Positions 5,256 through 10,190 of a stretch of DNA of 64,000 nucleotides are shown in pieces (the stretch's first letter is position 1; every line of letters begins with the position of its first letter). Both the position numbers and the translations under genes were made by a program. The stretch spans positions 785,348 through 849,347 of the forward strand of contig NC_017946.1 of NCBI RefSeq assembly GCF_000263735.1. The letters run 5' to 3'. The DNA comes from Pyrococcus sp. ST04. Its GTDB lineage: Archaea; Methanobacteriota_B; Thermococci; Thermococcales; Thermococcaceae. Below the pieces are notes generated by a model. That model was not told where the DNA came from and did not search any database. It saw nothing but the letters and a program-made list of their open reading frames with translations.

Positions 5256-6125
5256 CTATTTTGGGCATATGATCCCTTCTTCCTCACATCTATCCACCTC
5301 AAGCTGAATTGTGACATGCTTAATTCCATGCTTCCTAAGTATTTTCTCTACTTTATCGATTATCTTCTGAGCTTCGCTAAGCATCATATCCCTCGTTGCT
5401 ATGTGGCACTCGAAGTGGATTTCATCCTCTCCAACCCTCCAGACATGGAAGTGGTGGGCGTTTCTAACTCCGGGAATGCTTTCTATCTCCTTCTTTATGC
5501 TCTCAAGGTTTATGTTGGGGGAAGCTTCCATGAGAACTTCGATGCTCTCCTTGAGAATGTAATATGCTTCTCTTAGAATGTATAGAGATACGGCTACTGT
5601 TATTGCTGGGTCTATCCACAAGACCCCATATTTCATTAGCATTAGCCCTCCAACTACAACTGCAATCGATGAGAGCGTATCGCTGAGTAAGTGGAGGTAA
5701 GCTGATCTAACATTCATGCTTTCGTGGGAGTGTTCATGAAGGAGGGCAACGGAGATCAAATTTGCAAAAAGTCCAACAGTTGCCACCGGAAGCATTATTC
5801 TGGCATTGATGGGTTTTAAATTTGAGAATCTTCTGTATGCTTCAACTATGAGAAAAAGCGAAACCCCAACTAAAATAGTGGAGTTTAGAAATGCAACGAG
5901 TATTTCAGCCCTCCTATACCCGAACGTGAACTTTTCATTTTTCTTCATCTTTCCTATCCTGAGGGCTATATAGCTAGCCAAAATCCCCATGGCATCGCTG
6001 AAGTTATGAAGAGAATCACTTAGAAGAGCCAAGCTACCAGAAAGGATTCCTCCAATAATTTCTGCAATCGTTATTCCCACATTTAATACGACTGAAATCA
6101 GCATCTTTCTTTCGAGCATCAACAT
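5256..6125 (-). CDS. Cation diffusion facilitator (zinc/iron/manganese exporter)
   Basis: 289-residue CDF-family antiporter that exports divalent cations in exchange for protons. Six transmembrane segments fill the first 200 residues, followed by a cytoplasmic ferredoxin-like C-terminal domain (SIPGVRNAHHFHVWRVGEDEIHFECHI). Metal-site residues are visible in helix 2 (D37, H40, D44 within SDSLHNFSD) and helix 5 (H145, D149 within HLLSD), the HDxxD-type pattern usually linked to zinc. The protein ends with CEEEGIICPK, which offers two cysteines. It shares the 94-bp upstream gap with the divergent RNase J gene. Confidence 0.9.
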   Translation of the reverse strand: MLMLERKMLISVVLNVGITIAEIIGGILSGSLALLSDSLHNFSDAMGILASYIALRIGKMKKNEKFTFGYRRAEILVAFLNSTILVGVSLFLIVEAYRRFSNLKPINARIMLPVATVGLFANLISVALLHEHSHESMNVRSAYLHLLSDTLSSIAVVVGGLMLMKYGVLWIDPAITVAVSLYILREAYYILKESIEVLMEASPNINLESIKKEIESIPGVRNAHHFHVWRVGEDEIHFECHIATRDMMLSEAQKIIDKVEKILRKHGIKHVTIQLEVDRCEEEGIICPK

Positions 6126-6140
6126 ACACTAAATGCACAC

Positions 6141-6150
6141 CTTTTTAAGC
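6141..6150 (+). promoter_or_regulatory. Probable TATA element for the RNase J gene
   Basis: CTTTTTAAGC lies about 25-30 bp upstream of the start of the hairpin at 6171. Archaeal transcription starts about 25 bp downstream of the TATA box, so the transcript would begin close to 6168-6174. Inferred from spacing only. Confidence 0.4.
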
Positions 6151-6170
6151 TAATTCTTCAACTTAGCATC

Positions 6171-6206
6171 AGCTTTCCCCCGTGCCCATTAGGGCTCGGG
6201 GGAGCT
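6171..6206 (+). promoter_or_regulatory. Very stable 5' UTR hairpin of the RNase J mRNA
   Basis: An almost fully paired 36-nt inverted repeat. AGCT 6171-6174 pairs with 6203-6206, CCCCCG 6177-6182 with CGGGGG 6197-6202, and GCCC 6184-6187 with GGGC 6192-6195, closed by loop ATTA 6188-6191 with a T-T mismatch and a two-base bulge. It is followed at once by the GGGGCAGGAGG ribosome-binding site and the start codon at 6229. With the TATA element at 6141-6150, the predicted mRNA starts at or within a few bases of the hairpin, so the mRNA of a 5'-3' exonuclease would carry a paired 5' end. Confidence 0.7.
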
Positions 6207-6228
6207 AAGGGGCAGGAGGATGACGGGA

Positions 6229-7551
6229 ATGATAAAGATATACACTCTGGGAGGATACGAGGAAGTAGGGAAGAACATGACAGCTGTTGAGTATGATGGG
6301 GAAGTGGTGATAATCGATATGGGGATAAGGCTTGATAGAGTCTTAATTCATGAAGACGTTGAGTTTCAAAAAATGAGTTCAAAGGATCTGAGGAAGCTCG
6401 GGGCGATACCAGATGACAGGCCAATTAGGGACAAGAAAGTCGTTGCAATAGCCCTTTCTCATGGCCATCTTGACCACATAGGGGCCATTGGAAAACTTGC
6501 TCCGCACTATCCAGACGTTCCTATCTATGGGACTCCATACACAATAAGGTTAGCCAAGAGTGAGATAAAGGGAGAGGAGTACTTTGAGGTAACGAATCCC
6601 CTATATGAGACTAACTATGGGGAAATAGTCCAAGTGAGCGAAAATCTCGCGATTGAATTCGTCCAGATAACCCACTCAATACCCCACTCCTCAATAGTTG
6701 TTGTCCACACACCTGAAGGGGCTGTGGTCTATGCCTGTGACTATAAGTTCGACAATAATCATCCTTATGGGGAAAAGCCTGACTATAAGAGGCTCAAAGA
6801 GCTTGGCAGGGAGGGAGTTAAGGTTTTGATAGCTGAATCAACGAGGGTCGCTGAAGAAACCAAAACGCCAAGCGAGGCAGTCGCGAAGATGCTCCTTGAA
6901 GACTTCTTTTTGTATGAGGGGATGGAGGCGGATGGGTTAATAGCGACGACCTTCGCTTCCCATATAGCGAGGCTCCAGGAGCTGATAGAGATAGCAAACA
7001 AAATGGGTCGGCAGGCCATTTTCATTGGAAGATCTCTGGCTAAGTATACTGGAATAGCAAAGCAGCTTGGACTCATAAAGATGAAGGGGTCAAGAGTCCT
7101 AAGAAGCCCAAATGCTGTAAGCAAAGTGCTTAAAGAAGTCTCTCAGGCAAGAGAAAATTACCTTTTAATAGTGACCGGTCACCAAGGAGAGCCAGGGGCA
7201 ATATTAACAAGGATGGCGAACGGTGAGCTTTATGACATAGGTTCTAGGGACACCGTCGTTTTCTCGGCCGGCGTGATCCCGAATCCCCTAAACATTGCCC
7301 AGAGATACGCCTTGGAAACGAAGCTCAAAATGAAAGGTGTTAGGATGATAAAGAACCTTCACGTCTCGGGTCATGCGAGCAGGGAAGATCATAGGTATTT
7401 GATCAGAATGTTGAACCCCGAAAATATTGTTCCAGCTCATGGGGAATTCAGGATGCTCACCCACTATGCAGAGCTGGCAGAGGAGGAGGGGTACATGATT
7501 GGAAAGGATGTCTTCGTGTCGAGGAACGGCTACAAGGTGGAGATTCCGTAG
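6229..7551 (+). CDS. rnj: Archaeal RNase J, beta-CASP 5'-3' exoribonuclease
   Basis: 440-residue metallo-beta-lactamase/beta-CASP ribonuclease that degrades RNA from the 5' end and acts in mRNA turnover. The zinc motif HGHLDH lies at residues 78-83 with downstream partners HSIPHS, ACDYKFD and the C-terminal GHASREDH and PAHGEFR motifs. The small size without the bacterial C-terminal domain matches the aRNase J (not aCPSF) group. ATG 6220 abuts the AGGAGG at 6214-6219, whereas ATG 6229 has a 9-base spacing and begins MIKIYTLGGYEEVGKN, so 6229 is chosen. A strong hairpin precedes it in the leader. Confidence 0.93.
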   Translation: MIKIYTLGGYEEVGKNMTAVEYDGEVVIIDMGIRLDRVLIHEDVEFQKMSSKDLRKLGAIPDDRPIRDKKVVAIALSHGHLDHIGAIGKLAPHYPDVPIYGTPYTIRLAKSEIKGEEYFEVTNPLYETNYGEIVQVSENLAIEFVQITHSIPHSSIVVVHTPEGAVVYACDYKFDNNHPYGEKPDYKRLKELGREGVKVLIAESTRVAEETKTPSEAVAKMLLEDFFLYEGMEADGLIATTFASHIARLQELIEIANKMGRQAIFIGRSLAKYTGIAKQLGLIKMKGSRVLRSPNAVSKVLKEVSQARENYLLIVTGHQGEPGAILTRMANGELYDIGSRDTVVFSAGVIPNPLNIAQRYALETKLKMKGVRMIKNLHVSGHASREDHRYLIRMLNPENIVPAHGEFRMLTHYAELAEEEGYMIGKDVFVSRNGYKVEIP

Positions 7552-7782
7552 AGTCAGGTATGGAGGTTCTTTTCTTTGGTTTTCGTTTTCATCTGTTAAT
7601 ATAATTAGTTACATATTTGTACAACTCTTTTACTCTACTATCTTCTAAGTTAAAGCTAAAATCTTGAAAATAACAATTAAACTATTTTAAAAAAATAAAA
7701 TTACGCAAAATTGATGAAAAAATTTATAAGAATAAGTTTTTTATATGTGAACGCAAAATCCGAGGGAGGTAGTCCTAATAAA
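7552..7782. other. A/T-rich gap without a recognised gene
   Basis: The 231 bases after RNase J start with T-rich tracts (7567-7590) that could act as an oligo-T terminator, then continue as very A/T-rich sequence with A7 tracts around 7690. I see no convincing RNA gene. Confidence 0.5.
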
Positions 7783-7995
7783 GTGGAAGAGCTCAATGTA
7801 GTCCTCTCAGGACTGCTAATATTGGGAGTTAGTGGAACACAAATCGCTGCTGTTTTTGGCCAAGACTCCGAGGCAATGCCAGATATAAACCTGACGAAAA
7901 TACCCTCTTCAGGATACGTTGAGCTCAAAGAAATTTATGATTGCAATGAAACATTTATTGTTAAAGTTGAACATCCTGGCCTAAATGGTCTTTAA
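7783..7995 (+). CDS. Small secreted-type protein of unknown function, possibly truncated
   Basis: A 70-residue reading frame if translation starts at GTG 7783, about 12 bases after a GGGAGGT Shine-Dalgarno at 7764-7770. The N-terminus (VEELNVVLSGLLILGVSGT) has the hydrophobic core of a signal peptide, then polar sequence with one N-glycosylation sequon (NET). The frame also opens further upstream to 7711. It ends abruptly after HPGLNGL, 42 bp before the next lipoprotein gene, and may be the front end of a longer gene that decayed. I do not recognise a family. Confidence 0.4.
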   Translation: MEELNVVLSGLLILGVSGTQIAAVFGQDSEAMPDINLTKIPSSGYVELKEIYDCNETFIVKVEHPGLNGL

Positions 7996-8037
7996 TTCAT
8001 GGCGTTGTACTGGAGAGAATTGAGGGGGTGATGGAGA

Positions 8038-9006
8038 GTGGAGAAAACTTTTGTAGTTTTATTTCTGATCTTTCTAGTTTTTTCATCTGCATGTATTGGA
8101 AGGCAAGGAAATGTTGGCAATACTAAATCCTACGAGGTTCCCTCTAAACCAGAGAATGAATGCAGATTAGAAAAGCTTCCGGGCGAAAACATTGAGTTGA
8201 GTCCAATAGCGAAGTTTGGAAACATTACAATCATAAATGCGACCTACGGATACGTAATTTCAAAGAATGGCACTAAGGTTTTTCTGAACGTATCCAAAGC
8301 CTATTTCTTCCCATGGGGGTTTGTATTCATTGAAAAGACTCCCGAAGTGAGAACCGTTATTTTCGATAAGGTATGGATTGAAGACCATGTTTTCAAGAAA
8401 GACATAAAGAATATCACGACAATTGTAGAAGTTACAAGGATAAAGGCCTGCAGTTATAGAGGAAATGTCTTATGGGAACATGAAGTTCAGCTTCCCTATG
8501 TGTGGGAGTTCTCAAAAAACGATACAAGAGAAAGTTTCTATATGAAAGGTATTGCCTATCCAAAGGTTCTTATATCGAACAATACTGAGTACCTTTTCAT
8601 AGCGGAGCTCCCTCAGAGCATAAAAGGTCTAATATCCCTCCCAACGGCTAAAGGAGTTAATAATTACCTCTACATTTATGGTGGTGAAGGATTAGTTAAA
8701 AAGTTCTCCATCCCGAGCATGTTCAAGCTAAGGAATGTATTCCTGATTTCTGCGTGGAATTATACGGTATTTGGCTATGAAAAACCCCAAGAAGATTGGA
8801 GTCCTGACTATGGGGAGGTGATTATATTCAATGGTTCCCAGGTTATCTTCAGGAGAAAGTTCAAGTGGGCTCCCGGGTGCCTGTGCAACGTAATCCACGG
8901 GTGGGCGGAAATATATCCTGGTGGCTGTGTATACTTTGGGCTCCTTGAGGGGGAGGGATTATACTGCAACGGAACTTTCAGATACATCAAAAGAGAAAAC
9001 GGTTAA
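8038..9006 (+). CDS. Membrane-anchored lipoprotein, unknown function
   Basis: 322 residues from GTG 8038, preceded by GGGGGTGATGG. Residues 4-18 form a hydrophobic signal peptide ending in a lipobox-like SSAC with Cys19, so the mature protein is probably lipid-anchored on the outer face of the membrane. The rest is beta-rich with many N-glycosylation sequons (for example NIT, NAT, NGT, NVS, NDT) and four cysteines near the C-terminus (CLC around 281-283, GGC, YC) that could form disulfides. The gene is not recognised; similar orphan lipoproteins are common in Thermococcales. Confidence 0.6.
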   Translation: MEKTFVVLFLIFLVFSSACIGRQGNVGNTKSYEVPSKPENECRLEKLPGENIELSPIAKFGNITIINATYGYVISKNGTKVFLNVSKAYFFPWGFVFIEKTPEVRTVIFDKVWIEDHVFKKDIKNITTIVEVTRIKACSYRGNVLWEHEVQLPYVWEFSKNDTRESFYMKGIAYPKVLISNNTEYLFIAELPQSIKGLISLPTAKGVNNYLYIYGGEGLVKKFSIPSMFKLRNVFLISAWNYTVFGYEKPQEDWSPDYGEVIIFNGSQVIFRRKFKWAPGCLCNVIHGWAEIYPGGCVYFGLLEGEGLYCNGTFRYIKRENG

Positions 9007-9161
9007 AGTTCGCACAATTGAATCTGCTGAGGAATTTTCCGTGATTCTTCCTTAAAAGCTTCGGAGGTATGCATGGGGTGGAGAGTACTTGATGGCAAAG
9101 CTCATAAAGGTTAGGCCTTTTTTCTTCCTTAGCTACTTATGTTCATCTCGGAGGGATGCCT

Positions 9162-10190
9162 ATGGGAAAGTACGATGAGCTGTTTGCTAGAATTAAAGAG
9201 AAGGCCAAGCACGTTGATGAAAAGATATTTGAGCTCATACCGAAAAAAGAACCAGCAATTCTCTATGATGCGGCGAGGCACTACCCCCTAGCTGGTGGAA
9301 AGAGGGTAAGGCCGTTTGTTGTATTAACGGCTACTGAAGCCGTTGGCGGGGAGTGGGAGAAGGCGATTTATCCAGCGGTTGCTGTGGAGTTAATTCATAA
9401 CTATTCCCTCGTGCACGATGACATAATGGATATGGACGAAACCAGGAGAGGCAGGCCGACTGTTCACAAGCTGTGGGGAATAAACATGGCAATACTAGCT
9501 GGAGACCTGCTATTCAGCAAGGCTTTTGAGGCAATATCTAGGGCAGATATATCTCCTGAGAAAAAAGCCAAGATCCTGGAGACAATTGTTAAGGCATCCA
9601 ACGAACTCTGTGAAGGACAGGCCATGGATTTAGAGTTTGAAAACAGGGATACCGTTACTATTGATGAGTATATGAGAATGATAAGTGGAAAGACAGGAGC
9701 CCTATTTGATGCTTCCGCTAAGGTCGGAGGGATAGTTGGCACAGAAAATGAGGAGTACATTGCAGCACTATCCACATGGGGAAGGAACGTTGGGATAGCA
9801 TTTCAAATATGGGATGACGTGCTTGACCTGATAGCTGACGAGGAAAAGCTTGGAAAGCCTGTGGGAAGTGATATACGGAAAGGAAAGAAAACATTAATAG
9901 TTGCCCATTTCTTTGAGAATGCTGATGAAGAGGCAAAGAAGAGGTTTCTCAAGATATTCGGAAAGTACGCTGGGGATGTTAAGGGACAAGGAATAATTGA
10001 AGAGGATGTTAAGGCAGAAGTTAGAGAAGCCATTGATCTCTTGAAGGATTATGGCAGCATAGACTATGCAGCTAGAATAGCCAGAGAAATGATAGAGAGG
10101 GCTAACAAAGCCCTGGAAATTCTGCCCGAGAGTCCTGCAAGGAAGGATCTGGAACTCTTGGCAAAGTTCATAGTTGAGAGGGAATATTGA
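9162..10190 (+). CDS. idsA: Short-chain isoprenyl diphosphate synthase (FPP/GGPP synthase)
   Basis: 342-residue trans-prenyltransferase that condenses DMAPP with IPP units to farnesyl and geranylgeranyl diphosphate, the precursors of archaeal ether lipids. The first aspartate-rich motif is DDIMDMD (residues 86-92) followed by RRGRPT, and the second is in WDDVLDLIADEEKLGK with GSDIRKGKKT. A Tyr sits five residues before the first motif, a position that controls chain length. ATG 9162 has a 6-base spacing to GGAGGG (9150-9155), better than ATG 9156. The next gene starts on the base after its stop. Confidence 0.92.
   Translation: MGKYDELFARIKEKAKHVDEKIFELIPKKEPAILYDAARHYPLAGGKRVRPFVVLTATEAVGGEWEKAIYPAVAVELIHNYSLVHDDIMDMDETRRGRPTVHKLWGINMAILAGDLLFSKAFEAISRADISPEKKAKILETIVKASNELCEGQAMDLEFENRDTVTIDEYMRMISGKTGALFDASAKVGGIVGTENEEYIAALSTWGRNVGIAFQIWDDVLDLIADEEKLGKPVGSDIRKGKKTLIVAHFFENADEEAKKRFLKIFGKYAGDVKGQGIIEEDVKAEVREAIDLLKDYGSIDYAARIAREMIERANKALEILPESPARKDLELLAKFIVEREY

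Follow-up and report, generated by a model that had tools for sequence, protein, structure and literature searches.

A conserved hairpin at the predicted 5' end of the RNase J mRNA in Thermococcaceae: a possible autoregulatory leader

The window analysed in this work is a stretch of 64,000 nucleotides from the genome of Pyrococcus sp. ST04, and the features discussed below are collected in Table 1. The gene located downstream of the hairpin had been taken in a preliminary description for an RNase J, an identification confirmed by the TIGR00649 model, which it matches with 569 bits (curated cut-off, 400); the nearest solved structures to its product are those of the RNase J of Methanolobus psychrophilus. 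The leader/gene alignment revealed that the rnj genes of relatives align from ATG 6229 and not from 6220, and the latter start codon was rejected, since it is not conserved among them; with translation starting at ATG 6229, the Shine-Dalgarno sequence has a normal spacing of 9 nt. The genes upstream of rnj vary by species while the leader remains with rnj. In the window, the upstream neighbour is a divergent cation diffusion facilitator gene (5256-6125, minus strand), whose start lies 46 nt from the predicted start of the rnj transcript; a gene of this type is also found upstream of rnj in L003, but not in most relatives. Downstream, idsA usually lies within a few dozen bases of rnj in the relatives examined, and two reading frames (7711-9006) separate both genes in the window, unlike in most of these relatives.

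Table 1. Coordinates, strand and supporting evidence of the features at the rnj locus of the window.
Feature	Position	Strand	Evidence
Conserved box TGCACACC, abutting the TATA box on its 5' side	6134-6141	+	TGC[AG]CA[CT] in 70/86 rnj promoters
TATA box TTTTTAAG	6142-6149	+	Sequence; spacing to the hairpin shared by relatives
A at -10 (promoter proximal element)	6161	+	A in 60/64 distinct leaders
Initiator CAGC, predicted start A6171	6170-6173	+	[CT]A[AG]C in 63/64 distinct leaders, its A 21-23 nt after the TATA box
Predicted 58-nt 5' leader of the rnj mRNA	6171-6228	+	Promoter signals, folding
Hairpin as first drawn, with outer AGCT/AGCT helix	6171-6206	+	Sequence; outer helix not conserved
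Conserved type A hairpin: 6-bp lower helix, U-U mismatch (6183/6196), 4-bp upper helix, AUUA loop	6177-6202	+	Covariation; model R3 match in G000
Shine-Dalgarno GGAGG, 12 nt 3' of the hairpin core and outside the conserved helix	6215-6219	+	Sequence; relatives have a GGAGG-like motif ahead of their start codon
rnj, RNase J family beta-CASP ribonuclease, start codon ATG 6229	6229-7551	+	TIGR00649, E 7e-171; PDB 5haa, E 1e-135
IdsA-like isoprenyl diphosphate synthase (idsA)	9156-10190	+	Directly after rnj in most relatives examined, displaced here

When read directly from the sequence, every base pairing that the preliminary description had listed was found in its place. An outer helix (AGCT 6171-6174 with AGCT 6203-6206) is separated by a bulge (T6175-T6176) from the lower helix (CCCCCG 6177-6182 with CGGGGG 6197-6202), with which the core of the hairpin begins at pair C6177-G6202; U6183 then faces U6196 as an unpaired 1x1 mismatch, and the upper helix (GCCC 6184-6187 with GGGC 6192-6195) closes the loop ATTA (6188-6191). 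An 89-nt stretch folds with an energy of -35.1 kcal/mol (z -2.6; 4 of 200 shuffles equally good), and the predicted 58-nt leader folded alone reaches a z of -1.45 (19 of 200 shuffles), a weak value that results from its extreme GC content. Taking as control the ORF leaders of the window itself (n=62; mean -8.1, sd 4.1), the energy of the 58-nt leader, -26.5, is the lowest. This single sequence modestly beats its shuffles, which by itself is no proof of selection, and the decisive evidence for a selected hairpin is, in our judgement, comparative rather than energetic.

For this comparison, rnj leaders were taken from 86 Thermococcaceae genomes, window included. A hairpin with the same core, here called type A, occurs in 69 of these 86 leaders, and altered forms were found in two more (L010, L106). 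In this core, the lower helix is followed by an A-U or G-C pair and by two opposed pyrimidines that do not pair, and the upper helix then begins with G-C and C-G. Conservation of the pairing in other Thermococcales, with compensatory changes, had been set beforehand as a test capable of refuting the earlier proposal, and such conservation was indeed observed: in 34 distinct hairpins, 93% of the cells are paired and 6 of 10 scored pairs have changed on both sides. Cells changed on both sides amount to 35 against 10.5 in shuffles, none of 500 shuffles scoring as high, and no slid register leaves more than 66% of the cells paired. These values were obtained with the hairpins realigned by themselves before pair scoring; applied to 62 type A leaders as first aligned, RNAalifold returned 3 pairs only, because MAFFT had misplaced the upper helices of 4 and 5 bp. 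The outer AGCT helix, which the preliminary description had drawn as part of the structure, was discarded as a conserved part, since relatives do not keep its pairing.

The remaining leaders are mostly of a different kind. In 14 of the 86 genomes we found a type B leader, in which CCC/GGG surrounds a hairpin of 7-8 bp with a 7-nt bulge; a second hairpin comes after it, and there too a C-C mismatch is present. The 11 distinct type B sequences have 97% of their cells paired, versus at most 49% in a slid register, and 8 of their pairs have changed on both sides. When the A or B label is placed on the rnj gene tree, at least five changes are required, on well supported branches, and five were again obtained with 83 rows. 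Two leaders, L017 (G080) and L020 (G073), are of type A in a genus whose other leaders are of type B. In L017, the stretch from promoter to hairpin is like that of genus g5, while the Shine-Dalgarno sequence and coding start are like those of g4, a pattern that looks like the exchange of a leader module; for other A/B cases, whole genes may instead have moved horizontally.

The element is restricted to one gene. Searches with structure models gave one strong match per genome, always upstream of rnj, with model R1 in 49 genomes and with model R2 in 14 genomes. As R1 was built from Thermococcus-type hairpins and missed that of the window, model R3 was built to test uniqueness in G000, where its single match is the window hairpin (E 0.014, modest alone). 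Two traits expected of a cis-acting RNA element are both observed, namely pairing maintained through compensatory change among homologous leaders and a fixed association with rnj. No U-tract was found directly 3' of the type A hairpin, as an intrinsic terminator or attenuator would have, and among outgroup rnj genes of the same class no similar leader was detected, several of these genes sitting close behind an upstream reading frame. Overall, selection has very probably maintained this structure as an RNA element of the rnj leader.

The promoter signals place this element at the beginning of the predicted transcript. The TATA element described earlier ahead of the hairpin is present in the window (TTTTTAAG), with its centre about 26 nt before A6171, and TATA box, initiator and -10 A all point to A6171 as the predicted start. 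Promoters of T. onnurineus likewise have an A at -10 and the TATA centre about 27 nt upstream of starts (PMC5316973), and the TATA spacing reported for T. kodakarensis agrees with that of the rnj promoters (PMC4247193). The start predicted from these three signals agrees with the earlier placement of the hairpin at the mRNA's 5' end: judged by the -10 A and the YA initiator, the helix begins 1-7 nt into the predicted transcript. In 60 distinct type A leaders the distance from TATA box to helix is 26.8 +/- 0.45 nt, compared with 22.2 +/- 2.5 nt from helix to ATG in type A leaders, and in all 11 type B sequences the helix starts 23 nt downstream of the TATA box. The structure is thus anchored to the predicted transcription start and not to the start codon. 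The TGC[AG]CA[CT] box occurs with both leader types and is missing in most of genus g5 and in a few other genomes. The string GCACACCTTTTTAA is present once in G000, at rnj, and exact matches were found in six other genomes, at rnj in five of them and elsewhere in G092. The TGCACAC box beside the TATA element suggests that rnj is also under transcriptional control, and TGCACACC is possibly the site of a dedicated transcription factor.

A feature of the type A hairpin that deserves attention is its mismatch, which is C-C in 41, U-U in 27 and U-C in 1 of the 69 hairpins of the tree set, found with a search pattern that itself demanded pyrimidines at this place and that 3 of the 72 non-type-B leaders failed (L004, L010 and L106). 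Mapped on the rnj tree, the mismatch has altered its identity in six events, with six changes counted on the 5' side and five on the 3' side, most of which coincide; these events are too few for significance in a paired-change test. A structure kept for stability alone would not be expected to hold an unpaired position, so we read the conserved pyrimidine mismatch as a probable recognition feature, which suggests that something recognises the helix. The predicted stability of the hairpin at 90 C is about 0 kcal/mol in L011, L020 and L030. One genome of the window's genus, G008, has lost the type A hairpin; in the 120 nt before its rnj start (L004) the Shine-Dalgarno sequence is retained and the region resembles a deletion relative to L008. 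The longest ORF just downstream of rnj in G008 lies on the opposite strand.

The Rfam search of 11 rnj loci of both types, with E up to 5, gave no match at the leaders, and no such rnj leader is described in the part of the literature that was searched. In Escherichia coli, RNase E autoregulates through the 5' leader of rne. The rnj leader would be comparable in that, here too, a major mRNA-decay ribonuclease has a structured 5' leader on its mRNA, with a proposed coupling of enzyme level to that mRNA; the two leaders have no homology, and the bacterial one is long and belongs to an endonuclease, whereas the archaeal one is short (about 50-90 nt), has its helix at the very 5' end of the predicted transcript and belongs to a 5'-3' exonuclease. 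Structured leaders on ribonuclease mRNAs are already known in bacteria, and the rnj leader is a new archaeal case. It also resembles the stabilising 5' stem-loops of bacterial mRNAs of the ompA type, in that a helix at or near the 5' end could hinder 5'-end-dependent decay; these stem-loops are judged by stability, whereas the rnj hairpin retains a mismatch and belongs to the very gene that encodes the 5'-end-dependent nuclease. The leader of L7Ae is another short archaeal 5' element on one gene for which autogenous control is proposed or shown (PMC5539422), but it uses a k-turn, while the rnj leader has a 1x1 pyrimidine mismatch in a helix. By inspection, no k-turn (3-nt bulge and tandem sheared G-A pairs) was recognised in type A, which has no G-A/A-G tandem. 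Archaeal ribosomal leaders, found by comparison as well, are equally lineage-restricted, structured and covarying (PMC7247131), but they precede ribosomal protein genes, and RNase J is unmentioned in that paper.

We hypothesize that RNase J regulates its own synthesis through the leader at the 5' end of its mRNA, which we consider the best explanation of these data, with a probability of about 0.45. According to this model, a selected RNA structure acting in cis, its position fixed by the transcription start, would open the rnj mRNA; its helix, beginning no more than about 7 nt from the 5' end, would keep RNase J from readily entering this mRNA through a single-stranded end; the pyrimidine mismatch would be the recognition site for RNase J itself or for a partner; and the level of the enzyme would in this way feed back on decay or translation of the rnj mRNA. 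Pairing with compensatory change, the predicted 5'-end position, the restriction to rnj and the change between two architectures come directly from the sequences compared; RNase J as the reader of the leader and the direction of the feedback are inferred. The existence of two unlike architectures with the same 5' anchoring, changing at least five times, is consistent with such a gate. On the other side, G008 lives without the hairpin, which is thus not indispensable; the small stability predicted at growth temperature in some lineages weakens a pure stability block; and the leader may serve idsA expression as well, since idsA directly follows rnj in most genomes examined. More tentatively, archaeal RNase J may control its own mRNA via a dedicated 5'-terminal element for which two unrelated architectures have been swapped, doing the same job at the same position.

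Some of these observations would also suit another reader. Since the Shine-Dalgarno sequence follows the hairpin by only a few to about 20 nt, another RNA-binding protein, for example a translation or ribosomal factor, could bind the leader and repress or time the translation of rnj and often of idsA. The conserved mismatch with its invariant adjacent G-C pairs resembles a recognition site, and L7Ae represses its own mRNA in archaea via a motif in the 5' leader (PMC5539422). This is nevertheless rather unlikely, as the structure is anchored to the transcription start instead of the ribosome site, contains no k-turn recognisable by eye, and occurs as one site per genome, only at rnj, which fits autogenous control better. 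It is improbable, too, that the hairpin is a passive stabiliser, lengthening the half-life of the rnj mRNA with no feedback at all. 5'-terminal stem-loops stabilise bacterial mRNAs, and a helix starting no further than about 7 nt from the predicted 5' end, as in both leader types, would suit this effect; a simple clamp, on the other hand, would not be expected to retain unpaired pyrimidines in 69 of 69 scored hairpins, nor to be of weak predicted stability in some hyperthermophile lineages. A purely passive block is therefore an incomplete reading, because the conserved mismatch suggests that the helix is recognised.

The inverted repeat of the hairpin, just 3' of the start and at a fixed distance from the promoter, could in principle be a DNA operator bound in double-stranded form by a transcription factor, and the TGCACAC box beside the TATA element would agree with transcriptional control of some kind. 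We give this little credit: the mismatch interrupts the palindrome at a fixed place, the non-Watson-Crick departures, few as they are, favour G-U over A-C by 3 to 0, and type B, nested and with a 7-nt bulge, is unlike an operator. The least probable proposal, for which we see hardly any chance, is an RNA thermometer that frees the Shine-Dalgarno sequence at high temperature. In the predicted folds of L003 and L007, from the window's genus, the GGAG of the Shine-Dalgarno sequence has a possible pairing partner in a CUCC close to the 5' end, unlike in the window; the Shine-Dalgarno sequence lies outside the conserved helix, however, and its predicted accessibility gives no consistent melting switch.

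Autoregulation by RNase J, if correct, would bear on the question of how archaea set the levels of their mRNA-decay enzymes, about which little is known. With an rnj-specific leader predicted to lie at the very end that RNase J attacks, the autoregulation of an archaeal RNase becomes directly testable in the genetically tractable Thermococcus kodakarensis, and the two exchangeable architectures, together with the naturally hairpin-less G008, offer ready-made comparisons. The rnj leader would thereby join the few archaeal cis-regulatory RNAs that can be approached experimentally.
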